Source: Diabrotica undecimpunctata
Lineage: Eukaryota > Arthropoda > Insecta > Coleoptera > Chrysomelidae
Direction: 5' to 3'
Assembly (NCBI RefSeq): GCF_040954645.1
Contig: NC_092807.1
Coordinates: 1 to 64,000, forward strand
DNA: 64,000 nucleotides
Position 1 is the first letter of the stretch. Each line of letters begins with the position of its first letter. A program made the position numbers and the translations under genes. Of this stretch, positions 14,957 to 31,949 are shown in pieces. Under the pieces are notes generated by a model that was not told where the DNA came from, did no database searches, and saw nothing but the letters and a program-made list of their open reading frames with translations.

Positions 14957-16210
14957 TTAAATGATATTTTTGACAACTTCAGTTAGAGGAAAGTATTCGA
15001 GTAGGCTGTCGTGAACAATTAAACAGTACGCTCGAGTGCCTGCCGGAAAACCTTCATCTGCTTCGATTTCCAACTTAACATCAACAGTTCCTGATCTAAA
15101 TGACGTATCATCCTGTTTGGAGCAGTCGAACGTAAACAAGGTATATTTTTTAAATGCCTGATAATCCAAGATGGGATGTTTTGTTGACGAATGAGCATAA
15201 CTGGGAAAGAATTCGGTATAGTTGTAGTGAGCTATAGCATAGTCATTTTTATCAAAATCTAATTGCATTCTCTCGTTAGGCCAATAGTCTCCATTAATAA
15301 CCACTCGTATGCTTGACATTCTAATGTGATCGAATGACGTTGGATTGGCGTGAATATCATCTCGTTTAGAAGTTTGAAAAGCTACAATGACATAGCGTGG
15401 ACGTTCAACAGCTGAAGTTGTCTTTACACTCCATATCTCACGTCGAGATCCTGCCGTAAGTGAAGGTAGTTCATTAAGCTCCCATTTACGGAAAGGTATA
15501 GTTATCGGCGTATTATTCTTAATCGGAGTCATTAATTCAATTTTCACATCATCATTGGGAAAGACATGTTTGACCTTGAGTTCCATGCTAGTAACAGTTA
15601 AAGATACTGTCGTTGTCGTTGTGGCATTAGGTTCTTCCACTAAAATACAATCTCTATCATTACGTGCCCGAACAAATCGAAACACTTGACGACCATAAGT
15701 TAATTTAGTGTAATCGTTGAAAATGTTAAAAATATGTTTTATCGGAATCAGTAAACTAAAGCTGTCTCCTGATAAATGTGGATTATTCGGATAGTTCTAT
15801 CCTGCGGTACTGAGAAACTTGGAATCTTCAGGAGTGTAACATAACAAACTGCGAATAGTGCTAACTACGCCTGGATCTCGAACTATTTCCATATCGTGTG
15901 AACTTTGGGTATATGTACATGTATCAAACAAGAAGGCTCCAGCATTCGGTGCAAGAGAAACAGTTCCATTACCCACTTTCTTTATACTTCCTTTAATTTC
16001 CAAAAGTGTTTCGTGTATAGCAAAAAATGCATCTGATTGATTTATGATAAATTCAACAACATCGCTATTGTTAAATGACTTGATGTAAGGTGTGTACGTA
16101 CGAAATTCTTCTTTTCTAATAGTATCGTCGAACAGAGGTTTTTGGTAAATATCGAAAATAGGTGGCTGAGGTTCCTGAACCTGTCGTCGAATATATTGAC
16201 GTTTTGACAT
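14957..16210 (-). pseudogene. Major capsid protein (double jelly-roll), one in-frame TAG
   Basis: A frame of 417 codons read leftward from the ATG at 16210. The N-terminal part has the block VEFIINQSDAFFAIHETLLE and SLAPNAGAFLFDTCTY, then IVRDPGVVSTIR. The C-terminal part has RYVIVAFQTSKRD, FDHIRMSSIRVVINGDYWP and TRAYCLIVHDSLLEYFPL. These are conserved blocks of the Polinton/adintovirus double jelly-roll capsid protein, which forms the hexon-like shell. The two parts are in the same frame and separated only by a TAG at 15797-15799 (codon 138) plus sense codons up to the ATG at 15685. So there is one nonsense codon and no frameshift. It may be a recent inactivating mutation, an assembly error or a readthrough site. 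Confidence 0.85.
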
Positions 16211-16337
16211 CCTTCAACTTTAATCCAATGGAAACAAGAAAAGCTTTATTGACAGCAGACACGTCACGTCGCTTGCAGGATTTGTGTGAGACTAATGGAT
16301 ATTGGTGTGTAGAGTTTTGTTTTATAATTAAACCCAT

Positions 16338-17057
16338 CTATATCGTTTCCTTAAAATCCAAATGCAGCGTACTTTTCTCTCCTCTAAAGTTAACAGGTCT
16401 TAATTCTTGATCAACTACACTAACGGTAATTTTGGTAATTTCACGTATGCTGTTGCTTACTGGTATGTATATCGGATTATGAGGACGTTCGTCTATAGAA
16501 AAACCAGGATCAACACTTATCGGAAAATGTAGAATCGTGTGCGCAGGTCTGTCCTCGTAGAAGGCTCCTTCGGTAATGTTGCATTCAAAGAGTAGACTCG
16601 ATACTTTTATAATGTTGACAGGTTCATCTGAAGAATGTATTTTTCCTGGGGCCAAAATTCTATTTGAGGAGAATCCCAGTAATTTTCCAAGACTATCGTC
16701 TTTATCGAAAGTAATGGTGTGATCCTGACAAAAAATTTCACATTTAAGCGTATTGTTGTTCGGTCTTAAAGTAAACTCCCGAACCGAATTGTATTTATGC
16801 ATTAATTCATTTCGAATGTACGCTTCGATATCAGTAATTTCATAGCATCCGGATGGAATTTCAATATTACGCAGCTTTGTACGATCATTTTGCTCATAGA
16901 AATAAAACTTTTCACCATCGATGTTTGGAATTGAATTAAATGTATGAAATCCCAACACTGCTACATAATACTGTCGAAACGGATCAAGCATAAGAGGCAC
17001 TTGAGGAGTAAACGAAAACTCGTTTGTAGTACTCGTCAGGGTCAACAATCGAGACAT
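16338..17057 (-). CDS. Penton/minor capsid protein (single jelly-roll)
   Basis: 239 aa, intact. It begins MSRLLTLTSTTNEFSF and contains IEIPSGCYEITDIEAYI, LKCEIFCQDHTITF, LGKLLGFSSNRIL, VSSLLFECNITEGAFY and VDQELRPVNFRGE. This order is characteristic of the small capsid protein that accompanies the major capsid protein in arthropod Polintons and is predicted to be a single jelly-roll penton at the five-fold vertices. It lies 127 bp upstream of the major capsid gene in the same leftward block, as expected for a late structural unit. Confidence 0.8.
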   Translation of the reverse strand: MSRLLTLTSTTNEFSFTPQVPLMLDPFRQYYVAVLGFHTFNSIPNIDGEKFYFYEQNDRTKLRNIEIPSGCYEITDIEAYIRNELMHKYNSVREFTLRPNNNTLKCEIFCQDHTITFDKDDSLGKLLGFSSNRILAPGKIHSSDEPVNIIKVSSLLFECNITEGAFYEDRPAHTILHFPISVDPGFSIDERPHNPIYIPVSNSIREITKITVSVVDQELRPVNFRGEKSTLHLDFKETI

Positions 17058-17126
17058 GACTGATATGTGGTATAAGATGTAGTAAGTTAAATAACAAAAT
17101 ATGTTAAAAAATTCTTTTTATTTTTC

Positions 17127-17372
17127 TTATACTGTTACATGTTTTTTTATTTTATTTTTCTCATAATATGGTACTTCACAAAATACACATTTACTTTCCA
17201 TATACATACCACAAATATCACTCCATTCATGTTTATCATAATCTTTCTTGCAAGGTAAATATTCTTCTAGTGCGTGACGAATATCTTGAGGTAGTTCATA
17301 CCAAACATCGCTCGTTATATTTTCCATAAAAATGTGAATGGCACGTCTCAAGATTTCCTTAGATGGTTGCAT
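17127..17372 (-). CDS. Small Cys-containing Polinton protein (81 aa)
   Basis: Unrecognised. The start codon lies within the end of the protease gene (overlap 17359-17372, different frame), suggesting coupled expression. It is acidic in the middle (DKHEWSDICGMYMESKCVFC) with Cys residues that could bind metal, and has a basic C-terminus (KNKIKKHVTV). No function is assigned. Confidence 0.55.
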   Translation of the reverse strand: MQPSKEILRRAIHIFMENITSDVWYELPQDIRHALEEYLPCKKDYDKHEWSDICGMYMESKCVFCEVPYYEKNKIKKHVTV

Positions 17373-17721
17373 TGTAAAGAAACTTTAAGCACAAATGTCC
17401 ACAGTTTATTTGGTTATAACTTTGATATTGATCGTTATTGTAGAAAATTCTTCCACCGTTCAAATATGATACTAGTTCTCGCGGTGGCTTCAAGCAACCA
17501 TATGAATCAAAGTACTCTATGTTGTTGTTTATCTTCTTGTAAGCTACCCAATGTGTACCGGGGTTCGTTGAAATGTCGAGATTAATTATAGCACATTCAT
17601 GTTTACGAGGGTTACGCGGTAAATTATCTCTCATAAATACACCACGAAAATTTGAAATTTTAAGTAGTTTAGCAAATTTAATCAACTCCACATTAGTCAA
17701 TGGTCTATTAGGTAGCTTCAA
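17359..17721 (-). CDS. Adenain-like cysteine protease (Ad-PRO)
   Basis: 120 aa. The catalytic triad can be read as His57 in GTHWVAY, Asp72 in YFDSYG and Cys107 in NCGHLCLKFL, preceded by a Gln-rich segment (QYQSYNQ) that may supply the oxyanion Gln. This is the adenovirus/ULP1-type protease that matures capsid proteins in adenoviruses and Polintons. It is shorter than adenovirus protease (about 204 aa), as is usual in Polintons. Its ATG overlaps the stop of the phospholipase gene (17718-17721), and the next small gene starts inside its 3' end, a tightly packed leftward unit. Confidence 0.88.
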   Translation of the reverse strand: MKLPNRPLTNVELIKFAKLLKISNFRGVFMRDNLPRNPRKHECAIINLDISTNPGTHWVAYKKINNNIEYFDSYGCLKPPRELVSYLNGGRIFYNNDQYQSYNQINCGHLCLKFLYNATI

Positions 17722-18494
17722 CGGTAGTTTTTTGACTTCTTTAAATATAATCCAAAGCCACCTTTAGCGTTTTTTCGAAGGTATAATCCTTTACCTAGAT
17801 GTTCCATAGCTTTATTGTGACGTTTATCTTCTTCTAGTTTCTTTTGGGCATTCTTTAAATCAATTACACTTTTAGCGATTGCGCTCGCGCCCCCCGCCAA
17901 ACTTCCGAGAGCTGATAAGCCTGCAAAGATGGGGATTAAAGGCAAAATACCACCAGATTTTGGTTCGAATGGAATGATTCGTGGAACTCGTACATTCTTT
18001 TTCCCACCTACATTCTTAACGGCTTTTCTAGCTGCTGCAAGTGCAACTAAGGCTGATTTACGTAGATTTGGTGACTGAGGAGTACGTTTTAACGTTTTAA
18101 TAATTGGTTGTAGTACATGTCGCTTAAATGAACCAACACCTTTACCACGTTTCATACCCATACCCAGTTTTCGTTTAGCTTTCATTGCTGTAGTAGTAAA
18201 CCAGGCAGTAGCTTTTTCACCTAAAGTTGCGTCTTTTGCTTTAACTCGTTCCCACGCTTTGTTTTCCAACACCCAATCTGCTTTATGTCGATCTTTCAAT
18301 GAATTACTTTGGGAATATGCGATATCGTGATCCCTCGCAGCTCGATCTAATGGATTTACTCCAGGATCTCCACGAACTAGACGTTTCTGTAATTTTGTTC
18401 CAGGTCCTAGATATTGGTAACCAGGAGCATGTAATTCAAACGGTAGACTATTGATCAGAGAATTTAAAACTCCTTCACCTTGAACAACCAACAT
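17718..18494 (-). CDS. Phospholipase A2 / virion core fusion protein
   Basis: 258 aa from the ATG at 18494; an ATG 21 codons upstream (18557) is less likely because it crosses the divergent promoter. Residues 24-80 carry a parvovirus-VP1-like phospholipase A2 domain: calcium loop YLGPGT (28-33), GDPGVNPLD, and the catalytic His56-Asp57 pair in ARDHDIAY. This activity hydrolyses membrane phospholipids, in viruses to escape endosomes. The remainder is very basic (KAKRKLGMGMKRGKGVGSFK), resembling a DNA-condensing core protein, then a Gly/Ala-rich hydrophobic stretch (GGILPLIPIFAGLSALGSLA) and repeated GLYLRK/GLYLKK at the C-terminus. It is first gene of the leftward late block. Confidence 0.82.
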   Translation of the reverse strand: MLVVQGEGVLNSLINSLPFELHAPGYQYLGPGTKLQKRLVRGDPGVNPLDRAARDHDIAYSQSNSLKDRHKADWVLENKAWERVKAKDATLGEKATAWFTTTAMKAKRKLGMGMKRGKGVGSFKRHVLQPIIKTLKRTPQSPNLRKSALVALAAARKAVKNVGGKKNVRVPRIIPFEPKSGGILPLIPIFAGLSALGSLAGGASAIAKSVIDLKNAQKKLEEDKRHNKAMEHLGKGLYLRKNAKGGFGLYLKKSKNYR

Positions 18495-18564
18495 TGAAAT
18501 GAATTGTTTCTTACAAAAAATTCCTTTATATAACCAATTGTATAAAATACATCTCAATCACAAG
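18495..18564. promoter_or_regulatory. Bidirectional promoter between PLA2 and ATPase
   Basis: The 70 bp between divergent start codons holds a TATA-like TATAAAAT at 18541-18548 reading right and TATATAAAGG on the minus strand at 18523-18532 reading left. Each lies about 20-30 bases from its ATG, implying very short leaders. This could coordinate the structural and packaging/integration modules. Confidence 0.6.
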
Positions 18565-19251
18565 ATGAATGTCGTTCAACAAGACAAGACACTAGCAGTG
18601 GAAAACTTAGATTTTGTCGATAACGTGACAAGAACCAGTAAACATGGTGCATTGCTACCACATTCTTTTCGTGCTATCATATGTGGTCCAAGTGGATGTG
18701 GCAAAACTAATGTTATGTTGGCATTACTGTTTGACCTGAATGGCGCTAAATTCAAAAATGTTTACGTTTATTCAAAGTCGTTGTTTCAACCCAAGTATCA
18801 ATTTTTGAAGGAAGTGTTGGAGTCTGTGAAAAAAGTAGGCTATTTTCCATTTAAAGACAATGACGATGTAATAAGTCCCAGTAAAGCTAAACCAAATTCT
18901 ATTTTCATTTTTGATGATGTGTCAACTGATCCACAAAAAACAATACGTGAATATTACTGTATGGGTAGACATAAAGATATCGATTGTGCATACCTATGTC
19001 AATCATACAGTCGCGCAGGTAAACAACTTTTGCGTGATAATGCTAACCTTATTGTATTGTTTAAACAGGATGAGCTCAATTTAAAACACGTCTTTGACGA
19101 TCACGTCTCACCTGACATGACATTTGACCAATTTAAACAATTTTGTTCCGAATGTTGGAAAGACAAATACGGTACATTCGTTATTGTTAAGGATTTCGAT
19201 ATTTCTAACGGACGATATCGTAAAGGCTTCGACAAATTTATAAAAATGTAG
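18565..19251 (+). CDS. FtsK/HerA-type genome packaging ATPase
   Basis: 228 aa from the ATG at 18565; the frame is open from 18499, but the internal ATG lies after the TATA box. Walker A is GPSGCGKT (residues 41-48), Walker B is IFIFDDV (113-119), and a conserved Gln follows in YLCQSYSR. This is the A32/FtsK-HerA family ATPase found in Polintons, adenovirus-like and poxvirus lineages, which drives DNA into preformed capsids. It is the first gene of the rightward module and ends three bases before the next start region at 19254. Confidence 0.9.
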   Translation: MNVVQQDKTLAVENLDFVDNVTRTSKHGALLPHSFRAIICGPSGCGKTNVMLALLFDLNGAKFKNVYVYSKSLFQPKYQFLKEVLESVKKVGYFPFKDNDDVISPSKAKPNSIFIFDDVSTDPQKTIREYYCMGRHKDIDCAYLCQSYSRAGKQLLRDNANLIVLFKQDELNLKHVFDDHVSPDMTFDQFKQFCSECWKDKYGTFVIVKDFDISNGRYRKGFDKFIKM

Positions 19252-19253
19252 GT

Positions 19254-20369
19254 ATGATCGAAACACTCGCATTGTATAACAATATGTCAGACAAAGAGGT
19301 AGTTGCACGCAAACGTAAAGTTGCCGAATTAGCTCGGGTCATTCGCAAAAAGTATTTGGCGCTAAAGTTAGGTAGAACAGAACAAGATGAGTCACTAAAT
19401 AAACTATTTAAGCCGATAGCTAAACCTCTAAAAGATATTGCGCAATCTTCAAAAACGTTGCATCATGATATTAATAATAAGCTTAGACACGTCAAAAAAG
19501 AAGAGATCAAAACGGAAGAGGAGGTAAAAACAGAAGATAACGATGACGATGTATTTCCTGCTACAGTATCAACCAGTCAAGTTAAAGAACATGAAATGTT
19601 TGATCCTAATAATGTTTCGAAAGAGGTTATTAATGAATATATCGAGCAATATCCTCCAATGAGCCATAAGTATATAAAAGAGTTTTGGATGAAAGATAAT
19701 AAAATTGATAAAAACTATGGACCTATTTACAATGACGAAATTGGTTGGATGTTAGGTAAACGGCTAATAAACTTTAACAAAAACAAAGGTAGTATACAAG
19801 TCATCAGTGATGGTAGTGGGGAAGGAGGATGGGTGCCGGGAACGCCAGGTCTATACCAACTAATTTTCTATGATAACCCTGAAGATTATAACGATACAGA
19901 TTTAAAGCACTATAAAAGTTTATTAAATAGTACAGAAGTTCATCTGGATTCCAAAGGTCGTCTTAAAGGTGCAACTGGGAAAAAATATCATCATATTATC
20001 AAACCGCTATTTAAACCTACCGATGAAACAACAAAGAAATCGCCACCGAAAACTCGATCTACTGCATTAAAGAGACAACCTTTCGAAGGTCTTGTTCGTT
20101 TAGCAAAAACGACTCGTTCATCATCGTCAACAACGTCTCCTCGAACATCGTTATCTTCACCATCTAGCTACAAGGGGTCAGGACTCGTCGATGATTCTCA
20201 TTTGATCTACAATGATAATCCTATTGAATATGTGTATTGGGATGATCCAAACGAACTATGCGACAGACTCAAACTGTTGATTGCTTCCCAAGAAGCAGGA
20301 AACACATCCCACAATAACGAAATTGTTGCCATTATCAACGAATTACGTGAAGCAGATATTATATATTAA
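19254..20369 (+). CDS. Uncharacterised Polinton protein (371 aa)
   Basis: Recurrent in arthropod Polintons as far as I recall, function unknown. An ATG at 19284 (MSDKEVVARKRK) is a likely alternative start. The N-terminus is basic and helical, followed by an acidic linker (EEEVKTEDNDDDVF). A globular region has NYGPIYNDEIGWMLGK and WVPGTPGLYQLIFYDNPEDY. A Ser/Thr/Pro-rich stretch (about residues 260-310) precedes a conserved C-terminal block, YVYWDDPNELCDRLKLLIAS, then IVAIINELREADII. The Ser/Thr-rich spacer and helical ends suggest a virion or scaffold component. It sits between the ATPase and the coiled-coil genes. Confidence 0.75.
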   Translation: MIETLALYNNMSDKEVVARKRKVAELARVIRKKYLALKLGRTEQDESLNKLFKPIAKPLKDIAQSSKTLHHDINNKLRHVKKEEIKTEEEVKTEDNDDDVFPATVSTSQVKEHEMFDPNNVSKEVINEYIEQYPPMSHKYIKEFWMKDNKIDKNYGPIYNDEIGWMLGKRLINFNKNKGSIQVISDGSGEGGWVPGTPGLYQLIFYDNPEDYNDTDLKHYKSLLNSTEVHLDSKGRLKGATGKKYHHIIKPLFKPTDETTKKSPPKTRSTALKRQPFEGLVRLAKTTRSSSSTTSPRTSLSSPSSYKGSGLVDDSHLIYNDNPIEYVYWDDPNELCDRLKLLIASQEAGNTSHNNEIVAIINELREADIIY

Positions 20370-20403
20370 TGTTAGGTTAGATTATTGGAACATCATTTCC
20401 AAT

Positions 20404-21003
20404 ATGAGTGTTGACAAGTTTGGTCGTCATCATTATCGTTCTAATGAACAAGTTGTTAAAAAGCTACGTGATGGTTTAAAGCAATCCATTTTGGATTTAC
20501 AAAACCAGATACATACAGTCAATAAGGATATTAAACGAGATCCTCCTGTAGCAGGTATACATCTTTCCAACAAGAAATACGTAGATGAAAGCATTGTTCA
20601 CGTCAAAAATTTTGTAAGAAAAGAGTTTAATTTGATACGCAAAGAATATAATGCAAACGATACTCAACTTGAACAAAAAATCTTAAACTCCATCAGCAAG
20701 ATTGAAAGCAATTTTAATAAAAAAACTAATGAGTTATCTGATGACAATAAAATGGTTGGTTTGAAAATATCTGATTTAACAAAACAAGTACATGACTTTA
20801 AAAATAATTTAGATATATATAAAAGTGAAATGAAGAAGAACATTACAGATGCTGCCTACCAAAGTGCACAAAATATGCTGAAAACTTTGGAAATAGAAAA
20901 AAAGATTAAAACAATGGATCTTAATTCACATGAAAATCGTCTTAAGGTAATAGAAGATTACATCCAAAAGAGAAAAAATCATATAAAGACTAGGAAACAA
21001 TGA
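20404..21003 (+). CDS. Long coiled-coil protein, fibre-like
   Basis: 199 aa from the ATG at 20404 (MSVDKFGRHHYRS); the frame extends upstream to 20281 inside the previous gene, but the ATG at 20404 follows that gene's stop. After a short N-terminal motif, nearly the whole chain is heptad-patterned and charged (KKLRDGLKQSILDLQNQIHT, then KIESNFNKKTNELSDDNK) and no enzyme motif is present. Polintons and adintoviruses often carry such rod-like proteins, possibly fibre or tail-spike analogues. It is very Lys-rich. Confidence 0.65.
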   Translation: MSVDKFGRHHYRSNEQVVKKLRDGLKQSILDLQNQIHTVNKDIKRDPPVAGIHLSNKKYVDESIVHVKNFVRKEFNLIRKEYNANDTQLEQKILNSISKIESNFNKKTNELSDDNKMVGLKISDLTKQVHDFKNNLDIYKSEMKKNITDAAYQSAQNMLKTLEIEKKIKTMDLNSHENRLKVIEDYIQKRKNHIKTRKQ

Positions 21004-21043
21004 CTTAAAGCGTTAGAAGATAAAAAGGTTTGGAAGAGTAAAG

Positions 21044-21379
21044 ATGTCTGATGTAAAAAAGATAAAAAGTAAAAAACATAATAAATTACGAAGCGAGTTA
21101 CAGTTAAATATGCAAACAATAAATGCCAATAGAATTCATGATATTGAGCAATGGCAAAAAAGTATTCGAGATGAATCAGATATGAGATCATTATTAGATG
21201 GTAGAGTATCAGATCTGTCAAAGACTTTGTTCGAGCTGGATGAACGTTTATCTGCAGCAGTAAAAGAAATACAAGACTCACTTGCTATATTTAACACATA
21301 TTTACTCCCTTTAGTCCAAAGAGTTAAAGCGTTAGAAGGTAGACATGGCGTATTCCAAAGAGAAGATACAACTAGTTAA
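21044..21379 (+). CDS. Second short coiled-coil protein (111 aa)
   Basis: Basic N-terminus (MSDVKKIKSKKHNKLRSE) followed by heptads through residues 20-100 (LLDGRVSDLSKTLFELDERL, then LLPLVQRVKALEG). It overlaps the integrase start (21345-21379) in a different frame. Possibly a partner of the preceding coiled-coil protein; function unknown. Confidence 0.55.
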   Translation: MSDVKKIKSKKHNKLRSELQLNMQTINANRIHDIEQWQKSIRDESDMRSLLDGRVSDLSKTLFELDERLSAAVKEIQDSLAIFNTYLLPLVQRVKALEGRHGVFQREDTTS

Positions 21380-22277
21380 CGAGCTTCATAAGCAAGCACG
21401 AAAAAATTATCCGAGACGACGTACAATCATTAAAGGCTTAGACGATTTATGGCAGATGGACTTGGCTGAAATGCGATCTCATTCTCATAACAATAGAAAT
21501 TTTAAATTAATTTTAGTTGTTATTGATTGTTTCTCGAAATACCTTTGGACTCGTCCATTAAAGACAAAAACGGGTGAGGAGCTAACTCAAGCATTTTCAG
21601 ATATACTTAAACACAGTAAACGAATACCGAAAAATCTTCAGTCGGATCAGGGAACTGAATTTTACAACAACAAGTTTCAAAATTTAATGAAAAAACATAA
21701 AATAAACCACTACTCTGTTTTTACTACTATGAAAGCAGCCATAGCTGAACGCGTCATTAGAACGTTGAAATCCAAACTATACAAGTATTTCAGCTTACAC
21801 GGTACATACAAGTGGATTGACATATTACCCAAAGTTACGTCTGAATACAATAATACAAAACATTCAAAAACAGGGTACAAACCATCACAAGTGAACAAAA
21901 CCAATGAAAAGGAGATTTTAAAAAACAAGTTTACGCATTTAAAAATCGCAGGTCCACGAAAATTTAAAGTAGGCGACATTGTACGCATCAGCAAAACCAA
22001 AATGTTATTCGACAAGGGTTACGTTCCAAGTTGGACAACAGAATTATTCAAAGTTACTAAAATCAATATTACCAACCCTGCAACGTATATGCTCGAAGAC
22101 ATGCAAGGTGCACCGATCAAAGGGGCCTTTTATGATGAAGAATTGCAGAAAACAGCCAATCCCGATATTTACTTAGTCGAAAAAGTTTTACGTCGTAAAA
22201 ATAACAAAATGTACGTCAAATGGCTTGGCCTTGATGCAAAATATAATAGTTGGATTAATAATGACGCCGTTATCTAA
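21345..22277 (+). CDS. Retroviral-type integrase with chromodomain
   Basis: 310 aa. The catalytic triad is Asp39 (WQMDLAEM), Asp101 (LQSDQGTEF) and Glu135 (AAIAERVIRTLKSK), a DD33E spacing usual for Polintons. The C-terminal SH3-like part (KFKVGDIVRISK) is followed by a chromodomain (YLVEKVLRRKNNKMYVKWLG, residues about 276-310), which in retrotransposons targets methylated histones. It integrates the linear element with a 6-bp duplication, matching the CATAAT repeats at the ends. The start at 21345 overlaps the upstream gene. Confidence 0.95.
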   Translation: MAYSKEKIQLVNELHKQARKNYPRRRTIIKGLDDLWQMDLAEMRSHSHNNRNFKLILVVIDCFSKYLWTRPLKTKTGEELTQAFSDILKHSKRIPKNLQSDQGTEFYNNKFQNLMKKHKINHYSVFTTMKAAIAERVIRTLKSKLYKYFSLHGTYKWIDILPKVTSEYNNTKHSKTGYKPSQVNKTNEKEILKNKFTHLKIAGPRKFKVGDIVRISKTKMLFDKGYVPSWTTELFKVTKINITNPATYMLEDMQGAPIKGAFYDEELQKTANPDIYLVEKVLRRKNNKMYVKWLGLDAKYNSWINNDAVI

Positions 22278-22372
22278 AAGGGTGGGGGGAACAGAAGTAT
22301 GAAAAATTGAGGAGAAACACGTAGAAACACGTTTTTCTTTCTCAGTTTGTTACAGTCAGTTAGCTAGTAAAA

Positions 22373-23101
22373 ATGTATTCCCAAGATGCTGGAGGCTCAA
22401 GCGGCAGCGAGTATGATGTCACTCTTTCACCATCATCCGAAACATCAATCGTATGTGAAGACTATGATCATGAGTTGGATGCTCTTCTAGAAAAGTACGA
22501 AGAAGCAGCCAAGAACGAGACCCATTATCTGCTGTACACACATTTGTTAAATGGATCATACCAACTTGGATGTGGTCTAAGTCCAGCCAGAACATATACT
22601 CCTGCTGTAATTATGTGGAAGTCACCATGGCAGAAAATATCTTTCAGTACATGGGAATGGGAACAATTAATTACCCAACTCAATAAGAATAGTTTTTTCT
22701 ATGAGAACGTGACCGTTCCTGATAATCCTGTTGAAATTCAGTGTGGTGACTATTGTAGAATTCGACAAATAATCTACGACAACATGAAATTCCTCGAAAT
22801 AACCAAGCACGACATTAACGTTTGTCTCTCAGAAATGCAAGTGAACACCCTTTTAGAAGCAAATAACGAACTTTTAACACCGTATATATCCATGCTAGAG
22901 ACTATTGAATTTTCAAATTATTATTATAATACGCTTAATATTGTTCGAAATAGTTTTAGTAATCAAAATTATACGTTTGTAGACGCCATTCAAAAATTGT
23001 ATACATTTACACGGGAAGGATATACTTTACAACATATAGCGTTAGGGCAACTTATATTTTTCTGTAAACATAGGATCGCTAATGATCTTGAAAGAATTTA
23101 A
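22373..23101 (+). CDS. Uncharacterised Polinton protein (242 aa)
   Basis: Not firmly recognised. Ser/Asp/Glu-rich N-terminus (residues 1-45), then a block with VIMWKSPWQKISFSTWEWEQ, VEIQCGDYCRIRQIIYDNMK and FLEITKHDINVCLSEMQVNT. The pattern of strand, strand and 'LSEMQ' helix faintly resembles PC4-type single-stranded-DNA-binding cofactors, but I cannot confirm this. A helical C-terminus follows. An initiator-like TCAGTT stands about 20 bases before the ATG, and AATAAA overlaps the stop region at 23102. Confidence 0.6.
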   Translation: MYSQDAGGSSGSEYDVTLSPSSETSIVCEDYDHELDALLEKYEEAAKNETHYLLYTHLLNGSYQLGCGLSPARTYTPAVIMWKSPWQKISFSTWEWEQLITQLNKNSFFYENVTVPDNPVEIQCGDYCRIRQIIYDNMKFLEITKHDINVCLSEMQVNTLLEANNELLTPYISMLETIEFSNYYYNTLNIVRNSFSNQNYTFVDAIQKLYTFTREGYTLQHIALGQLIFFCKHRIANDLERI

Positions 23102-23242
23102 TAAAGCTTTTAAAAAATATGTATTTGTTGTTTTATTTATTTAAAATTAAAAATAAGATCAATCGGGCTGGTGGGGTCAAAAAGTGTCAAATTTTACTTA
23201 TATCAAACTAATACTTTCTTATTTGAACCAGTATCATTCGAG

Positions 23243-24793
23243 ATGCATATCAATAAAGTTGTTCTGCTCATAGCAACTAGCATCGTAAGTTTTTGCTTAG
23301 GTGAAAATTTTAACGAGACAAATGCGGTGTCATGGTTAGAACAATATGGTTATATCACCACAAGTGAAACTGCACACACTGATATTACTGAAATACTAGA
23401 ACAGTTTCAAGAAAGATATAATTTACCTGTGGATGGAAAATTAAATAGAGAAACAATGACGTTAATGCAGAAACCAAGATGTACACAAGGAGACAATGCT
23501 TACGCTGTAAAATCAGCATGGAAAAAATTTGATTTAAAATGGTATTTTCCGCAATTTACCCCTGAAGCTTTGGCAGTCTCTAAAAGAGTATTTGAAATAT
23601 GGGAAAAAGCATCAAAATTTAAGTTTACTTATCTGAAAGTTCCAATTCCAAATCCAGATATAACAATAACAGTCGTTCCAAAGCAGCACTCTTTTCGATA
23701 TAATTGCCAGGGTAACAGCGACTGTCCTTATAAATTTACAAGTGGTGTATTAGCACATTCTTATTTTCCTCCAGCATCTGGATGCATAGAAATTCATATG
23801 AATAGCAACCTAACATGGGATTTCAGTTTGAATTCTACAGCAGAAGGTCGAACAAATTTCTTTGCTGTCCTTCTTCATGAAGTTGGTCACGCTTTAGGTT
23901 TATCCCATAGTAGCGATAAGAAAGCTGTAATGTATCCGTTTTATCAAACCCTACCTACTAACATATCTGAAGATGACAAAAGGGGCTTAGAAGAGTTATA
24001 TGGACCTAAAAGTAAATCCACATCGATTCCAACTCAAGCTGGTGTTACAAGGAGCAGTTCTCCAACTTTAAAGACAACCACAACAGAAAGATCTAGGAGT
24101 AAGACAACCACAATAGCCAAGAGTAATAAATCGATGCAAAATGTCATAACGAATGTATGTGAATTGGAATACCCAGATTTAATATTTTTAGCATACGCTC
24201 CATCATTTCCAGCATACCGAATGTACATAGTAAGTAAGGATCTGATATGGAAATATGACTTAAATAATGAAAAGATACCCACCGATGCTGAACAATTTAT
24301 AAGATATTTGCCAAGGGGAATTACGAACGTAACACATGTTTTTCAAAGCACCAATGGAGATTTAATTGGTGTAAGTAGGAATCGTATATACGCAGCAGCA
24401 TTTCCTAGCTTAAGAATTCATACAGATAACATGGTACCTGAAGTTAATAACGCAAGAAGTATTGCTGGTTTATTTCAAACAAATTCAGGAAAAAAATTTG
24501 TTTGTTTTGATGGTTCATTTATTGAATTTAATGATAAAGGCATTATCTCAAGAGGACGTATAAGTGACGTTTTTCCAGGAATACCAAATGATATTACATC
24601 AGCATTTAATTACATTGATGGGCATATATATTTCTTAAAGCAAAACATTTATTACAAGTTTAATGAATTTACAAGAAGTGTCGTTGAAAAAGGTAGTTTT
24701 AACTGGAATTTGTTAGGGTTCCCTTGTCCTGATAATGGATTAATAAAACAACTGAAATCCTTATTATCTAAAGTAAATTTATTTTATGAATGA
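23243..24793 (+). CDS. Secreted matrix metalloproteinase, captured cargo
   Basis: 516 aa from the ATG at 23243; an in-frame start at 23171 would bury the signal peptide. Residues 1-20 are a signal peptide (VVLLIATSIVSFCLG). A peptidoglycan-binding-like prodomain (about 28-85) ends in the cysteine switch KPRC (Cys80), which normally ligates the zinc to keep the enzyme latent. The catalytic domain has HEVGHALGLSH (212-222) and the Met-turn AVMYP (Met230). A Ser/Thr-rich linker (about 260-305) leads to a hemopexin-like domain bounded by Cys in TNVCELEYP and GFPCPDN. No RxKR furin site, membrane span or GPI signal is evident. The gene has no introns, unlike host MMP genes, and lies well inside the Polinton between core genes. 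Its presumed role is breaching extracellular matrix or basement membrane. Confidence 0.93.
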   Translation: MHINKVVLLIATSIVSFCLGENFNETNAVSWLEQYGYITTSETAHTDITEILEQFQERYNLPVDGKLNRETMTLMQKPRCTQGDNAYAVKSAWKKFDLKWYFPQFTPEALAVSKRVFEIWEKASKFKFTYLKVPIPNPDITITVVPKQHSFRYNCQGNSDCPYKFTSGVLAHSYFPPASGCIEIHMNSNLTWDFSLNSTAEGRTNFFAVLLHEVGHALGLSHSSDKKAVMYPFYQTLPTNISEDDKRGLEELYGPKSKSTSIPTQAGVTRSSSPTLKTTTTERSRSKTTTIAKSNKSMQNVITNVCELEYPDLIFLAYAPSFPAYRMYIVSKDLIWKYDLNNEKIPTDAEQFIRYLPRGITNVTHVFQSTNGDLIGVSRNRIYAAAFPSLRIHTDNMVPEVNNARSIAGLFQTNSGKKFVCFDGSFIEFNDKGIISRGRISDVFPGIPNDITSAFNYIDGHIYFLKQNIYYKFNEFTRSVVEKGSFNWNLLGFPCPDNGLIKQLKSLLSKVNLFYE

Positions 24794-24836
24794 TTAATGT
24801 CTAAATGGGAATTTGTATTGGGAAAATGTAAATTAA

Positions 24837-24890
24837 AATAAAGAATATTTTATTATAAAGTTTTTTTATTTTGACATTTTTTTTATTTAC
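24837..24890. terminator. Convergent polyadenylation signals after MMP
   Basis: AATAAA at 24837-24842 on the plus strand, 44 bases after the MMP stop, faces TTTATT motifs at 24849-24854 and near 24885 that give AATAAA on the minus strand for the gene ending at 24981. Confidence 0.6.
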
Positions 24891-24980
24891 AATAATATAT
24901 GTACAAAATATAATATAAACATTAACTTAGATAGGAATGAACAATTTTTAATTTTTTTTAAATTTGTTTGTCGAAAAAAG

Positions 24981-25604
24981 TTAATAATTGTTTTCAAATG
25001 AGTCAATATCACAATCTACATCTGAATCATCAAATCTGGTTTTTCTAGGCATTTCATGTAAGTCATCTATACAAGAATCGGTATCTTTTATTTTAAATAA
25101 TACACGTTCAAAACAGTTATGACACCAATAATATTTTTGTTGGTACACATCCTTAATAATATCATGGATATCGTAAACCTCGTGAGAATGGTCATAGCAA
25201 ACAAATATATATTTATTTAAATATTCATGTATTTTTTTAAATTGATAAAAACACCTTTTGCATACTTTAAGACGATATTGTTGAAGGAAATATCCACTTG
25301 ACCATACGCAATAACTAGAATAATTTTCAAAAACATACTCCCAATCGGATTTTCCTAATATAGTATTAATTAAATCTGGATCTATTTCTTTGGAACATGT
25401 AATATAGTTAAGTCTTTCATATGAATGATCAGAATCATTTTTAGCTTTCTTTATCATAAAACGCCATTTAAATTTAGGATAATATACCACTATTGTCTTG
25501 GTTAATTTCCATGGTAGCGGAGATTGTAGCATAAAATCTGCTGCTGATGTTATTGATTCACAAATTTTTTTAACAGATAATGTTAATAATGTTGGAACGT
25601 TCAT
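24981..25604 (-). CDS. Cys-rich protein with possible BC-box N-terminus
   Basis: 207 aa, unrecognised. The N-terminus reads VPTLLTLSVKKICESI and then SPLPWKLTKTI, which resembles the elongin-binding BC-box plus LPxxL helix of SOCS-box and F-box-like adaptors. The middle and C-terminal half have paired cysteines (VCKRCFYQF, WCHNCFERV) suitable for zinc binding, then an Asp-rich tail (DDSDVDCDIDSFEN). If the BC-box reading is right, the protein could recruit a host ubiquitin ligase; this is inference only. It lies 19 bp downstream of the polymerase gene, same strand. Confidence 0.6.
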   Translation of the reverse strand: MNVPTLLTLSVKKICESITSAADFMLQSPLPWKLTKTIVVYYPKFKWRFMIKKAKNDSDHSYERLNYITCSKEIDPDLINTILGKSDWEYVFENYSSYCVWSSGYFLQQYRLKVCKRCFYQFKKIHEYLNKYIFVCYDHSHEVYDIHDIIKDVYQQKYYWCHNCFERVLFKIKDTDSCIDDLHEMPRKTRFDDSDVDCDIDSFENNY

Positions 25605-25623
25605 CTATAACAAAAAAAAAGGC

Positions 25624-28600
25624 TTATTCTAAAATACTGTAATGACCCCACGGAAGCGTGTCAAAACTGTTCGGAATTAAATAGCGTTTATCATCATACG
25701 GACTTAAACCAATTTTTGTTTGTTCGATAGAATAGACGTTATGTGCATATGACCTAATACAGCGTTGTGTAGCTGTTTTTTCTTTAAAATTTTTTAAACA
25801 TTCAACATAATCCTCAAATTTAATTTTATTTTTAACAATATTATATTTAACTCCTTTAGATTTTTTAACGATCTTCCCACTCTGCACCTTGTAACTATAC
25901 ATTTTACTTCGAAGCCCAACAAAATGTGTCATAATTTTACCGTTGTTTTCATCTTTCATTAGACCTGGCACCTTTTTGTTTTTTCTTGGTATTTTATATA
26001 TGTTATTTTCCGAATAATCTGAAGTATCGAATTTATCAGAGTCAGCTTTAATTACCTCCTCATATACATCCTCACACTGTAACTCGTAGACAAAACTATC
26101 GGTGTCCATGTACATAAGCTTACACCTATCTGCTCCCATTTTTGGTAACATATAGTTGTAATGAAAATCATACATGACTGTCTTCGAGAGGTCTAGAATT
26201 GCCTGCCCTACATACAGAGGTTTATTAAACGTTACTTCAAGCTTTTTTAATTCGATAACCACCAGATTTTCCTCTAAAATTGTGCAACTATGGAATCGAA
26301 AATTTGAAATTAAGTTTGCGGCGCCATAACGACCTCCCCAAGATTTGGCAATTTTGCAAATACGGTGTTTTTTTATATTTTCCATGGTTTTGCCGAACAC
26401 AGCGTTGTTCATTAATTTATATAGATTTTTTTCGAAATCTGTTCGAGCTATAGCCCTATTTCGAGTATTTAGCTCGATGTAGGGCTTCAACCAGGCTCCC
26501 TGTTTAAATTGTAAAATTTTATGAATTTTCGTTAACTTTAATCCATTAGCTAGCATTTGTTTTAAATTTTTATAGTGAACAGTATATTCTTTTTTATCGT
26601 TAAGTGTTGTCATTAATTTCGACAATTTTACTCCGCCACTGGGCGGTACGCTGCGTTCGGCTGCAAACGGAAAATCTTTATGTTTATCATGCAATTCTTG
26701 TGGGTATGATAGATCAACTTGTAGCACATATCCTATATCAGAGTTGTCGGGTATTGATGTTACATCAAACGATGTTACATCATCCACCCATTTGAAGCCT
26801 CCGTAGGGTAAGAGCTGCTCCATTGCAAAACCATACAAATTGTTTACATCCAGGTACATAAGGTACTTGGAAGGCTTTTTAGGATCGTATTCAGACATAT
26901 ATTTATTGTTGGCCTCCGAAAATCGGTTACTACACACGGATATTCCACCTCTTATGGCATTTTCGTAAAACAACACCATGTCTGGATCCTTTAGTAGTTC
27001 TAGCCTACACCCAGTATACTTGAGCATACAGTCCCACGTATATCCGGGCATTGTATAGTACCACGCAGGATCCAAACCATAGGTAGAGAAACATTTTTTA
27101 CGTAATTGTTCGAAAACGTCAGCAAGAAGCAGAATATCTGTTTTTAAATAAATATCGGAATATTCCCCTATAGTTTGAATATTAAAATGCTGCCAAACAG
27201 CTTGTGCATGAGCATACTTCTCATCACTTATAGTTTCATCGTTTAATTTATTGTAAAATTTTTCAATTGAGGGCAAATCTTTTTCATTTAATTTTTCTAA
27301 AGAATCAATGTAATCGTAACAGAAAACTCCTTTACGCGTTAGTAGTTTAAATTTATTTTCATCTAAATTTTGAAATTCCCTCTGTAAAATTTTCTTTTCT
27401 GAATCAGATAAAATTGAAACTAATTCATCAAGAGAAGCCCCCATAAATCGAAAAGAGTCTATAAATCGTAATTTAATGTTATTTTCATCTGAGTGCAGCG
27501 TAAAGGAGATATATTTATCTTTGTTGATGGGAAGTACACTCAAGTGACCTTTTTTACATAAATTTGAAATCATAAAGTGTGAGTCATATCCAGAGAGGTT
27601 ATGAAAAATAATAGGCACTACAAACAATTTTCGAAAGTTCAGATTACATGCTTGGTGTGCGAAACCTCTGAATTTCCCACTGAAATGGTCATGATCTTTA
27701 ACGATTATGTCTTTGATCGAAAAACTTTTACTGCAAATATGACACGATGTTGCTGTACTTGCATTTGGTTTTTCAATCATAGGCGTAATTGTTTTTATTT
27801 TTGAGTTTACAAATTTCGCAACATCAGCCATACGATTCGCAAACCAATCCATACAATCTGCACCTCGGTAGCTATCGAAATACGAAAGGTTGTCGTCAAA
27901 GTTGCATTTTACATAAAAACCGGCACTATATGGGACATGTTTTTGATATTTTACGGTTTTAGTTAAATTTACGTTGCTTTGGTTATAATTTTCTAATTGA
28001 CACTCAAAATCTGCATAAACTACAAAAGGAGTAGCTTGCTGATATGTAAAGTTTTTAAATTCGACGTGGCTCTCTTTTGGAAAGTTAATTTTATATTTAT
28101 TAAATTTAGAACACACTTTTTCATGCTCAACTAATTTATTTTGCTGATGAAAATAATTCATACATCTATCGCAAATAAATTTTTTGTGATTGTTCTTATT
28201 TAACTGACTACTAACCAGACGCGAAAGATTTTTAATCCAACAATAATGGTATTTAATATCTTCGTTACAATCATCATCAGCTGGTGGAGCATCATAATCA
28301 TTTAAGCGCGGATAATATTTATTTTGAACTAAAAGTAAATTAACGTGTGTGTCCCGTTTATTTTCCGTTAATCTAGCAGGTAATACTGTGTAAAATAATG
28401 TTTTGTCTGTTTGAACTAATTCTAAAGCGTAAACATTAACTGAAATATTATTTAATTTCTCAAATTTTGAAATTTTTGTTAGCGGCATAGGACTATCTAA
28501 ATTCTCTGTTTGTAAAACTTCTGTAAAGTATGGATATGAAGAGGTTTCTTCTGCATGATTTTTATTAATAGGAGCCCGAAGAGCGCTTACGATGGCCCAG

Positions 28601-29391
28601 TAAAAACAATTGTGATCTGTATTTTTAATGTTTATACAAGCATTTTTTTTTAAAATTGGTTCTGGGAGTCTAATGTAAGATGAAACATTTCCAAGTTGAA
28701 ATTTATTTATATTAACAGCTAAAGAAATAATTTTATTTAATGCAAATCCCGAATCTTTTTCGGCAAATTCCGATAATTCGTTTAAAAGTTTATCTACTAC
28801 ATTTCCCTTGAACCATTCGTCTATTTGAGTTGATATATCAATAACATAGTTTTTAGTATTAAAATATTTAATTTCCAAAATCTCATTATCTCCTGACTTT
28901 CTAATAAACTCCCCACAAAATGCTGTATTTACTTTAAGTGCAGAGTGGTTTTTTAAAATTTTACCGATTTTATTTTTAAAAACAACTACACAATCTCCTA
29001 AAAATTGATTCAAATCCTTATGACGTAAATTAGCTATAATTCCGGTTTTGATTCTACTTTGAAAGCTTGATTGTACATTTTCCCATTTAACCCTCTGACC
29101 CAACTTTAAATGAAGACCCGACCCTATATGCCTATTTAAAATTAGTTTTCTAAAATGTTTAAAATGACCCAAATTTGTTTCTATTTTTCTACAAGTGCCT
29201 ACAGATAATTTGTTTTGTTTCCTACTACGAATTACCTTCTTACATAATTTAATTTGTTTTTGTAATCGTTTAAGCCATACTTCCGCATCTCTGATTGTAA
29301 AATTATCAAATAAAATTTTTCGTAATTTTTTAATTGCTAGTACAACACCGTCCGTTTGTTTGATAATATTATCAATATTATTCGAAGACAT
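25624..29391 (-). CDS. Protein-primed family B DNA polymerase (pPolB)
   Basis: 1255 aa, uninterrupted. Exonuclease motifs: Exo I YADFECQ (Asp461, Glu463), Exo II FHNLSGYD (596-603), Exo III YLKTDILLLAD (748-758). Polymerase motifs: A YLDVNNLYG (Asp848), B NNAVFGKTMEN (995-1005), C YMDTDS (Asp1096, Asp1098). Between Exo I and II a Cys/His segment (CHIC at 550-553, VKDHDHFSGKFRGFAHQAC) resembles an HNH/endonuclease VII zinc site, as in other arthropod Polinton polymerases. The N-terminal 400 residues include DHNCFYWAI (Cys262) and DTHVNLLLV (His349), compatible with an OTU-like cysteine protease, and a zinc-finger-like C-x2-C..H-x4-C at 407-427. It replicates the element from protein-primed termini. 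A TATA-like TTTATAAAAT lies immediately upstream. Confidence 0.96.
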   Translation of the reverse strand: MSSNNIDNIIKQTDGVVLAIKKLRKILFDNFTIRDAEVWLKRLQKQIKLCKKVIRSRKQNKLSVGTCRKIETNLGHFKHFRKLILNRHIGSGLHLKLGQRVKWENVQSSFQSRIKTGIIANLRHKDLNQFLGDCVVVFKNKIGKILKNHSALKVNTAFCGEFIRKSGDNEILEIKYFNTKNYVIDISTQIDEWFKGNVVDKLLNELSEFAEKDSGFALNKIISLAVNINKFQLGNVSSYIRLPEPILKKNACINIKNTDHNCFYWAIVSALRAPINKNHAEETSSYPYFTEVLQTENLDSPMPLTKISKFEKLNNISVNVYALELVQTDKTLFYTVLPARLTENKRDTHVNLLLVQNKYYPRLNDYDAPPADDDCNEDIKYHYCWIKNLSRLVSSQLNKNNHKKFICDRCMNYFHQQNKLVEHEKVCSKFNKYKINFPKESHVEFKNFTYQQATPFVVYADFECQLENYNQSNVNLTKTVKYQKHVPYSAGFYVKCNFDDNLSYFDSYRGADCMDWFANRMADVAKFVNSKIKTITPMIEKPNASTATSCHICSKSFSIKDIIVKDHDHFSGKFRGFAHQACNLNFRKLFVVPIIFHNLSGYDSHFMISNLCKKGHLSVLPINKDKYISFTLHSDENNIKLRFIDSFRFMGASLDELVSILSDSEKKILQREFQNLDENKFKLLTRKGVFCYDYIDSLEKLNEKDLPSIEKFYNKLNDETISDEKYAHAQAVWQHFNIQTIGEYSDIYLKTDILLLADVFEQLRKKCFSTYGLDPAWYYTMPGYTWDCMLKYTGCRLELLKDPDMVLFYENAIRGGISVCSNRFSEANNKYMSEYDPKKPSKYLMYLDVNNLYGFAMEQLLPYGGFKWVDDVTSFDVTSIPDNSDIGYVLQVDLSYPQELHDKHKDFPFAAERSVPPSGGVKLSKLMTTLNDKKEYTVHYKNLKQMLANGLKLTKIHKILQFKQGAWLKPYIELNTRNRAIARTDFEKNLYKLMNNAVFGKTMENIKKHRICKIAKSWGGRYGAANLISNFRFHSCTILEENLVVIELKKLEVTFNKPLYVGQAILDLSKTVMYDFHYNYMLPKMGADRCKLMYMDTDSFVYELQCEDVYEEVIKADSDKFDTSDYSENNIYKIPRKNKKVPGLMKDENNGKIMTHFVGLRSKMYSYKVQSGKIVKKSKGVKYNIVKNKIKFEDYVECLKNFKEKTATQRCIRSYAHNVYSIEQTKIGLSPYDDKRYLIPNSFDTLPWGHYSILE

Positions 29392-29474
29392 TTTATTTTA
29401 TAAAAGAACACTTTACGACAAACAAATTGGAAAAAAATTAAAAAATTGCTCACCCCTATCCTTTTTTCTATACG

Positions 29475-29780
29475 TTAATTTTCGGTTATCCTAAACGATG
29501 ATAGGAGTCTTTTTTTACCAACGTCTACTTCTCCTTCGAACGTAACAGAATATTTGCCTCCACAAAGTGTCCCTATGGCTGGTTCGTACACTTCCGTCAC
29601 CCGCTGAGGCAGAAAAACTACTTCCGCTCCCAAATCTAACAAAACTGCTGGTCCAAAGTTGCCCTTCACCACTTTTGCGGACTCTATTGGAAACGGCTGT
29701 CCAATTGGTAGATCTTTTAATTTCTTTATCGGTTTCCTCTCTGCAACTGAAGACGCAGCGTTAATTTTTGCTAGATCCAT
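29475..29780 (-). CDS. Small OB-fold-like protein (101 aa), possible SSB
   Basis: KKLKDLPIGQPFPIESAKVV, then FGPAVLLDLGAEVVFLPQRV and GGKYSVTFEGEVDV. The alternating strands and length fit an OB-fold single-stranded-DNA-binding protein, and I recall similar small proteins beside polymerase genes in insect Polintons. It lies 83 bp upstream of the polymerase gene on the same strand, consistent with an early replication unit. Function is inferred. Confidence 0.6.
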   Translation of the reverse strand: MDLAKINAASSVAERKPIKKLKDLPIGQPFPIESAKVVKGNFGPAVLLDLGAEVVFLPQRVTEVYEPAIGTLCGGKYSVTFEGEVDVGKKRLLSSFRITEN

Positions 29781-29838
29781 CTGAAAATATTTACTTGCTA
29801 TACAAATCTATATATTTAGAAAATTCACACTAAGACTA

Positions 29839-31150
29839 TTAGGAAATAATAACAAAACGGAAAATCAAAGAAATAATATGTATATTGTTACGAACAAAAC
29901 GTGCTACGAAAATAAAATAGATAGTAGAATAGAATAGATTATAAAAGAATAAATATGTATACTGTATGAATAATATCGAGATTTCTATCGAAGGATGCCA
30001 AAATAACATTTTTATCGAAATCATATGTATACTGCATAACAATAGAAATAATATGTATACTGTACGAATGGTCGGCCCTTTTATCGAAATATGTATACTG
30101 TATAAAAATAGAGAAATAGAAATAATATATATACTGCACGAATGGTTTGTCTTTCAACTTTTTTAGTGGTTTGCATACACAACTGTATATATTTAGAAAT
30201 TCAAACTAAAAACTATTGGCATGAGATAATAATAAAGCGAAAAATCAAAAATACATATGAAAAAAGAAATAGTATATATTGTTAAAAATATACATACCAG
30301 AACGAGATAAAAAGAAAGAATATGTCTAGTGTCGAAATAAAATTGAAATTTCTAGCGAAGAACACTAAAATAACATTTTTTATCGAAATAGTGTGTGTAT
30401 ACAACATGAAAATAGAGAAATAATATGTCTACTGTACGAATAAAACTAAAATTGAGAAATAAAACAAATAAAAACGAAGATCGGGAAAAATAATTAAAAT
30501 TTCTATCTAAGATTACTAAAAATAACATTTTTGTTGAAAAATTATGTATACTGTATAAAAATAGAAATAATATGTATACTGTGCGAATACATACCAGAAC
30601 GATATATTAAAAAAGAAAGAATATGTCTAGTGTCGAAATAAAATTGAAATTTCTATCGAAGAACATTAAAATAACATTTTTTATCGAAATAGTGTGTAAA
30701 CAACATGAAAATAGAGAAATAATATGTCTACTGTACGAATAAAACTAAAATTGAGAAAAAACAAATAAAACGAAGATCGAGAAAAATAATTAAAATTTCT
30801 ATATAAGATTACTAAAAATAACATTTTTGTTGAAAAATTATGTATACTGTATAACAATAGAAATAATATGTATACTGTGCGAATGACCGGTATTTCAATT
30901 TTTCCTTGGTTTGCATACGAAATTCGAACTAAAACTATTGGTATGAGATAATAGCAAAAACGAAAAATTAAAACGAAAATAGAACAAGATATTAGAAAAT
31001 AAAGAATAGGTATGGCAATAAACTTGAAATTTCTATCGAAGAACACTAAAATAACATTTTTTTATCGAAATATAGTGTATACTACCTGAAAATAGAGAAA
31101 TATTATGTATACTGTACGAATAAAACAAATAAGGCGAATATCGAGATGTG
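29839..31150. repeat. Polinton non-coding repeats around TATGTATACTGTA
   Basis: About 1.3 kb with no credible gene, built from diverged repeats of TATGTATACTGTACGAAT, whose core GTATAC is a palindrome, and of ATAACATTTTTTATCGAAAT. Two long tandem copies with a period of 297 bp start at 30292 and 30589 (ACATACCAGAACGA), and a third partial copy runs from about 31000 to 31140. It lies between the replication genes and the right TIR. It may act as promoter, replication or packaging region. Confidence 0.8.
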
Positions 31151-31455
31151 TACTCTTAGAAAGAATTCAAAAATATGTGAATATACAAGTTAAAAAACAA
31201 AATCATACAAAGAGAAAACTTACCTCGGTATATTAGTCACGACACAACTTTTAGACACAAACAACTTTTTCTTATTGCTAAAACAAAAGCACAATAAATG
31301 AAAAACCGGCGTGCATCCTATTTTATATTGTGGCTTAATTGACGTCACATGCATCTAATATTAAACATTTTCCAGTTTATTCTTGAAAGTCGTGTTGGTT
31401 CATGACTAATTATTCAATAGCAAATACTTAGTAACGCAACACATGCAGCATCCGG

Positions 31456-31672
31456 AAATGCCAATTGCATGTAAAATGCATGTGTGTCTAATTCTCGACA
31501 CCAATATTATAGATAAAAATGGGACTCCCTTGGAAAATACCATTATGCAGTAAACTATTTTAAATGTCCAGAAAATACAATTACATGTAAAATGCATATA
31601 TTATATTTTCAGTACCAATATTATAGATAAAAACGGGACTCCTTGTGAAATAACATTTTCCAATGAAGTATT
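31456..31672. repeat. Two ~117-bp direct repeats inside Polinton right end
   Basis: Copies at about 31456-31560 and 31573-31672 share CATGTAAAATGCAT, CCAATATTATAGATAAAAA and GGGACTCC. No coding content. A TGACGTCA palindrome lies upstream at 31340-31347. Confidence 0.7.
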
Positions 31673-31821
31673 TATACATATCTAATTAAACTGTATACCA
31701 AAGAATATGTTTTTTATTAACTAATATATTACAATTCTATAAATTATGTATTTGAATTAAATATTTTTTTACTTCACCAAAAAACTAAGTCGCTTTATCA
31801 AATATATTCTATATACGTGAG

Positions 31822-31903
31822 AGCGAAATAGCTAAATTGATATAGCGTCTGCCACTATAACAGACAATTGTTGGATTGAGTCCCCATATTAGTAGCATTT
31901 TTT
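31822..31903 (+). ncRNA. tRNA-like sequence with Pol III boxes (degenerate)
   Basis: An A-box-like TAGCTAAATTGA at 31829-31840 and a B-box-like GGATTGAGTCC at 31873-31883 are 44 bases apart, exactly the tRNA spacing, and a T6 run at 31898-31903 could end Pol III transcription. The D stem (GCTA/TAGC) and most of the anticodon stem (TCTG/CAGA) pair. The T stem and acceptor stem do not, and position 33 is A rather than T. On tRNA numbering the anticodon would be CTA. Probably a decayed tRNA or tRNA-derived fragment rather than a working tRNA. Confidence 0.35.
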
Positions 31904-31949
31904 ATTTATTTAATAATTGTAATTTGGATTTAAAAAATGGGCGTTGATA

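Follow-up and report, generated by a model that had tools for sequence, protein, structure and literature searches.

A conserved matrix metalloproteinase gene carried by Polintons of the leaf beetle Diabrotica undecimpunctata

The window analysed here (the whole stretch of nt 1–64,000 of contig NC_092807.1, assembly GCF_040954645.1, from the leaf beetle Diabrotica undecimpunctata) contains a Polinton carrying an uninterrupted gene for a matrix metalloproteinase (MMP), and related genes accompany Polinton genes at many other places in the same genome. The terminal inverted repeats (TIRs) of the element match at 227 of 230 positions (3 mismatches), and the hexamer CATAAT lies directly outside both ends, so that the element spans nt 13338–32279 (18,942 bp). 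The target duplication of Polintons/Mavericks is 6 bp long. An earlier, sequence-only reading had placed the MMP in an element bounded by TIRs and a target duplication, and both are indeed present. The gene itself is as follows.

23243–24793, plus strand: matrix metalloproteinase with a signal-peptide-like start, PRC propeptide, catalytic domain and hemopexin-like propeller (open reading frame (ORF), Pfam and predicted model)

From its ATG the frame encodes 516 aa without an intron. The N-terminus is hydrophobic and, judged by eye, resembles a signal peptide. The propeptide carries the cysteine switch as PRC (Cys80, in the local sequence PRCTQGD; the usual MMP consensus is PRCGxPD), and both the zinc site HEVGHALGLSH (HExGHxxGxxH type) and the Met-turn (M230) are present. 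A Thr/Ser-rich linker separates the catalytic and C-terminal domains. Pfam detects Peptidase_M10 (3e-27) and PG_binding_1 (7e-7), and the top PDB sequence match is stromelysin-2 (9csx, 4.5e-24). No Pfam match to hemopexin was found in the window protein at E ≤ 0.01, though the family (PF00045) is detected in paralogue P0010 at 1.3e-8. In the predicted model (mean pLDDT 76.6, pTM 0.52), the C-terminal propeller resembles the solved hemopexin domains 1itv (TM-score 0.78 by target length), 3c7x and 1rtg, and the model also fits solved pro-catalytic domains. TM-scores of the full-length fold matches, 1su3 (E 1e-25) among them, are low (0.34–0.43) because the angle between the domains is uncertain. 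The fold matches, together with a cysteine pair (C306/C495), identify the hemopexin domain, and the features listed for this protein by the sequence-only reading are thus borne out, the hemopexin domain included. Judged from its sequence and model, the ORF reads as a complete secreted-type MMP with propeptide, catalytic domain and hemopexin-like propeller. It is not a chance frame, since many open-frame relatives occur in this genome and in other beetles.

The remaining features of the element, in order along the window, are:

13332–13337, unstranded: left target site duplication CATAAT, matching the right copy
13338–13567, plus strand: left TIR, 230 bp, 227/230 identity to the right TIR
13918–14343, plus strand: 141-aa ORF with hydrophobic N- and C-terminal stretches (by eye), a possible membrane protein, without Pfam match
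14416–14907, minus strand: 163-aa ORF, with relatives near the MMPs of loci L091 and L092 at 73–74% identity
14957–15586, minus strand: C-terminal piece of the double jelly roll (DJR) major capsid protein (DJR-like_dom 5.2e-48), ORF read from an upstream GTG
15797–16210, minus strand: N-terminal piece of the major capsid protein (DJR-like_dom 0.011, below cut-off)
16338–17057, minus strand: 239-aa ORF without family match, lying where a penton might be expected (placement only)
17359–17634, minus strand: possible piece of an adenain-like cysteine protease (Peptidase_C5 at E 0.015, short of the cut-off)
17718–18494, minus strand: phospholipase A2-like domain protein (Phospholip_A2_4, 7.3e-11)
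18499–19251, plus strand: genome-packaging ATPase of A32/FtsK type (Pox_A32, 7.2e-8)
20404–21003, plus strand: coiled-coil protein, possibly fibre-like, with a weak likeness to the tail of protein P0021 (E 0.013)
21345–22277, plus strand: retrovirus-type integrase (rve, 1.6e-13) with a hint of a C-terminal chromodomain (Chromo, 0.0061, below cut-off)
22373–23101, plus strand: 242-aa ORF (ORF242), lying immediately before the MMP in all 19 fetched loci of element families A and B
24981–25604, minus strand: ORF of 207 aa that weakly resembles densovirus NS3 (Pfam 7.8e-4, short of the cut-off)
25624–29391, minus strand: 1255-aa PolB-like ORF with motifs YADFEC, NLSGYDS, DVNNLYG and YMDTDS
29475–29780, minus strand: 101-aa conserved ORF adjoining PolB
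32050–32279, minus strand: right TIR, 230 bp (TIR comparison)
32280–32285, unstranded: right target site duplication CATAAT, matching the left copy

The element thus shares with Polintons/Mavericks (Eupolintoviridae) and adintoviruses an RVE integrase, a DJR capsid protein, an FtsK/A32-type ATPase, TIRs, a 6-bp target duplication and a predicted PolB. The last is recognised by its four motifs, which we take to be polymerase/exonuclease motifs; searches of Pfam, PHROGs and PDB with this ORF gave no polymerase match. Homologues of it adjoin most of the fetched MMPs. No penton protein was found by family match among the window ORFs. According to PMC11071296, the definition of an adintovirus asks for an integrase with a C-terminal chromodomain, and the chromodomain score of the window integrase falls below the cut-off. 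The weak NS3 match of the 207-aa ORF is a hint of exchange with parvoviruses. P0021, an MMP homologue on a 3.5-kb contig, has the pro- and catalytic domains of an MMP and, after them, a long coiled coil, and perhaps represents an enzyme fixed to the particle; its tail shows no kinship of note to the ORF next after the window coiled coil.

A search of the 1.74-Gb assembly with the MMP returned 84 rows, 65 of which span at least residues 15–515 without an internal stop; full copies comprise about 10 at 97–100%, about 12 at about 91% and about 50 at 45–50% identity. The matrixin family gave 151 matches, and merging both searches (82 of the 84 MMP rows, two second pieces being dropped, and 150 of the 151 matrixin matches) left at least 166 distinct places. 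Three of these resemble exons of host Mmp genes, presumably Mmp1-like and Mmp2-like by their resemblance. All 36 MMP loci fetched with flanks (33 at first, being the 19 best after the window and 14 from diverged classes, then three intronless ones from further classes) are adjoined by Polinton genes. At L114, the ORF beside the MMP is a polymerase of a different type (DNA_pol_B_2, 1.7e-29). No Polinton genes were found on two stretches (0.9 and 1.7 kb) holding host-like Mmp exons.

Across the genome, an integrase match lies within 20 kb of 76 of the 166 MMP places (the best 128 of 10,671 integrase candidates being scored), on the same strand in 75 cases, compared with 0–3 places (mean 0.9) in 16 shifted controls. 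The integrase is upstream at 2–3 kb or 7–9 kb in 73 of 77 pairs. Conversely, an MMP is found near 75 of the 128 scored integrases and, among the matches listed, near 31 of 37 PolB places. Integrase proximity and direct checks together establish a Polinton context for 88 of the 166 places, plus those on three further loci, and a D. balteata protein in which ORF242 is fused to the MMP shows that a second Diabrotica species has this gene neighbourhood. As first read from the window, the MMP is contiguous with Polinton core genes in the assembly, and the same holds for many other copies; this argues against a pseudogene confined to one copy, and the assembly shows no sign of a false join. The Polinton load of the genome is large, with 10,671 first-look integrase candidates (other elements possibly included) and at least 150 capsid matches.

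The elements have moved with the MMP on board. Of family A (that of the window element), nine copies were examined, eight in addition to the window copy; a tenth was left out. In five, both ends are present and flanked by perfect 6-bp duplications, all different (CATAAT in the window; TATATA, ACTATT, ATGGTC and GTTCTG in the other four), and the remaining four show one end only within the fetched stretches. L005 and L006 have the same 12 bases of left flank at the element, and so probably represent one insertion assembled twice (contig C25 being an alternative of the C9 site). L091 contains a 4.9-kb non-autonomous element (L091:1753–6637) with TIRs of about 780 bp and AAGTTT duplications, in which a homologue of the 163-aa ORF is accompanied by a capsid fragment and a damaged MMP. 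At L115:1–6712, a head-to-head inverted duplication of 2.6 kb (99.8% identity) carries an MMP in each arm, followed by PolB-like sequence.

When a homologue of the MMP served as query in a protein search, relatives turned up in further leaf beetles, ants, a planthopper and a kissing bug, as well as entry P0089, 'TPA_asm: collagenase [Ladona dragonfly adintovirus]'. A tree of 48 rows was built from 6 sequences of this genome and 42 of 164 database proteins, leaving aside fragments, a doubtful ant model and most vertebrate rows; of the insect Mmp types it contains Mmp2, but neither Mmp1 nor Mmp3. In it, 38 rows, the Ladona collagenase included, are split from insect Mmp2 and deuterostome MMPs with support of 100/100; branching inside this group, including the position of Ladona, is only partly resolved, and five rows are of unusual composition. 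The group is marked by Cys at C161 (38/38 rows, against 3/10 others) and Glu at E183 (37/38, against 0/10). The catalytic H, E, H and H are found in 37 of the 38 rows, one being gapped, C306 and C495 in all 38, and the switch cysteine in 35 (two gapped, one Tyr).

Insect Mmp1 and Mmp2 share the catalytic site and hemopexin plan with the Polinton MMP, but Mmp2 lacks Cys161, has Asp in place of Glu183 and falls on the other side of the tree, and the Mmp-like exons of the host are separated by introns, whereas the Polinton MMP is intronless. A tree of a shorter stretch (98 columns, with long branches and an arbitrary root) places two host-like Mmp exons with vertebrate MMPs (100/98). The Polinton MMPs lie apart from Mmp2 and from these exons, and so probably do not stem from a recent capture of a host gene in this beetle. 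The proposal that the gene had been captured from the host finds no support in either tree as far as the Mmp genes of this beetle are concerned. Among IMG/VR viral contigs, no close relative of the MMP and no relative of PolB was found; a profile search of the same contigs gave 60 loci with distant matrixins. Phage records yielded no match to the MMP.

The association of an MMP with such elements is not the first on record, although the sequence-only reading knew of no described Polinton with one. The deposited Ladona adintovirus collagenase, known from its database entry, is a full-length MMP of 508 aa in the same group, differing in coming from Odonata and in being only 29% identical to the window protein. 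In 2009, ten 'probably virus-derived' MMPs of Tribolium, one of them transcribed, were reported (PMC2649432); they stand apart from MMP-1 to MMP-3, and were likened by the authors to the MMP of Heliothis zea virus 1. No vehicle was named for them, and they are set beside the Polinton MMPs by description only; 'Polinton', 'transpos-' and 'horizontal' do not occur in the main text of that paper. The conserved Polinton proteins named in the accessible portion of PMC4028283 do not include an MMP. No literature joining Polintons or adintoviruses with MMP, metalloprotease or collagenase was found, within a coverage thin on subscription papers. What is new is the extent: the MMP is an old, constrained cargo of several Polinton lineages that transposes with them.

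That constraint is seen in comparisons between lineages. Ratios of nonsynonymous to synonymous divergence (dN/dS) for the MMP are 0.33–0.37 between families A and B and 0.21–0.29 between lineages C, D, F and G, and neutrality is rejected in each between-lineage comparison (p 4.4e-5 or smaller). Corresponding ratios for neighbouring genes are 0.11–0.12 (integrase), 0.27–0.33 (ORF242) and 0.14–0.21 (PolB). Synonymous divergence (dS) between families A and B is 0.24 in the integrase, 0.17–0.20 in ORF242 and 0.12–0.13 in the MMP, whereas PolB is saturated at synonymous sites; the left part of the element, MMP included, thus has a history different from that of the PolB part. Similarly, in three of the four cross pairs of lineages C and F with D and G, dS is 0.20–0.37 for the MMP and 1.5–2.1 for PolB. 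Profile comparison of the two PolB types shows a weak likeness. Because the MMP and polymerase histories differ, the MMP is probably passed from one Polinton lineage to another. These sequence comparisons are most simply read as exchange by recombination, and gene conversion within the beetle genome would leave a similar pattern.

MMPs of this domain plan are secreted as zymogens and cut extracellular matrix. If the N-terminal hydrophobic stretch acts as a signal peptide, the Polinton MMP would be secreted from infected cells, activated through release of its cysteine switch, and would then cut basement membrane or other matrix, letting particles of the element reach further tissues, possibly including the germ line. 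The closest viral fold matches are MMPs of insect DNA viruses (granuloviruses, Helicoverpa zea nudivirus 2 (HzNV-2), ascoviruses, entomopoxviruses and iridescent viruses), all of them large DNA viruses that were compared with the Polinton MMP by fold only. The HzNV-2 protein has a signal peptide and hemopexin, and the authors of that genome considered matrix proteolysis in infected tissue (PMC3280521). Given what is known of the family and the occurrence of MMPs in several families of insect DNA viruses, spread across the basal lamina is the likeliest role. That the intact MMP is secreted and cuts basement membrane, so that particles reach further tissues and possibly the germ line, is given a probability of roughly 0.55. 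It would be reasonable to suppose an infectious stage and spread from tissue to tissue, and access to the germ line by means of the MMP would be an attractive further possibility.

Several observations weigh against this role. An in-frame stop splits the capsid gene of the window copy into its two pieces, although other copies have open capsid frames (112 of the 150 listed capsid matches are open over at least 400 aa, some in the family of the window element). RNA interference against one virus-derived MMP of Tribolium caused no developmental defect and left susceptibility to a fungus unchanged, in a study that tested no virus (PMC2649432). Matrix would not have to be cut for direct passage from cell to cell or for vertical passage. 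No listed MMP lies near 53 of the 128 scored integrases or 6 of the 37 PolB places, which may mean that the gene is dispensable or that the list of matches is incomplete. Between families A and B, constraint on the MMP is milder than on the integrase and resembles that on ORF242. Within families, where MMP pairs differ by few changes, dN/dS ranges from 0.12 to 1.05; recent copies in the genome may thus be only weakly constrained.

MMPs act on many substrates, and the Polinton enzyme could instead be a virulence or immune-modulating factor that works on haemocytes, signalling proteins or the surface proteins of the element itself. This is the most serious competitor to barrier cutting, if an improbable one. 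P0021, in which a coiled coil joined to the catalytic domain could place the enzyme on the particle, is in its favour, but is known from one short contig, and the kinship of its coiled coil to that of the window is weak. The cysteine pair flanking the hemopexin domain, kept as noted throughout the 38-row group, argues the other way, since hemopexin is the usual substrate-binding part. Knock-down of Tribolium MMP-1, a further point for immune modulation, shortens survival of fungal infection (PMC2649432).

Service to the beetle, for example in tissue remodelling, appears unlikely. Knorr et al. proposed co-option of the virus-derived Tribolium MMPs, and the transcription of one of them is consistent with host use (PMC2649432), but the Diabrotica copies occupy no fixed locus, being carried by mobile elements that have target duplications and near-identical siblings, and the beetle keeps separate exons resembling its own Mmp genes. 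It is equally unlikely that the MMP is a passenger, copied with the element and having no role of its own. Integrases and PolBs without a listed MMP, and the damaged MMP retained by the short element of L091, would fit such a gene; a dN/dS well below 1 between lineages, an active site conserved across insect orders, and the discordant histories of MMP and PolB, which look like the outcome of an exchange of the MMP, would not. Finally, a recent processed pseudogene landed in one element copy, which the sequence-only reading had named as its own undoing and to which only the lack of introns beside split host-like Mmp exons lends colour, is ruled out by scores of copies, many with open frames, in several element lineages, by kin in other genera and by the separation from host MMPs.

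Passage between tissues, the reading preferred here, has consequences beyond the window. A matrix-cutting enzyme suits something that passes tissue barriers, and conservation of the MMP therefore points, indirectly, to an extracellular stage, offering a testable handle on whether animal Polintons leave cells as viruses. More tentatively, and with the odds against it, the secreted MMP may be an ancient, near-core gene of insect Polintons, a cassette passed between polymerase lineages and insect orders that serves to cross the basal lamina of the gonad. Were this true, it would account both for repeated entry into the germ line and for the unplaced 'virus-derived' MMPs of Tribolium, for which, as for other unexplained beetle MMPs of this kind, a Polinton is a possible vehicle.

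Many of the genes annotated as 'matrix metalloproteinase-14-like' or 'stromelysin-like' in beetles and ants may belong to mobile elements. Among the beetle sequences, the Acanthoscelides MMP groups with those of Diabrotica, leaving Psylliodes outside (support 97/80, identities 65–68%; P0062, P0058, P0015, P0018 and P0060). This disagrees with the expected relationships of these beetles, and is a lead for horizontal transfer.
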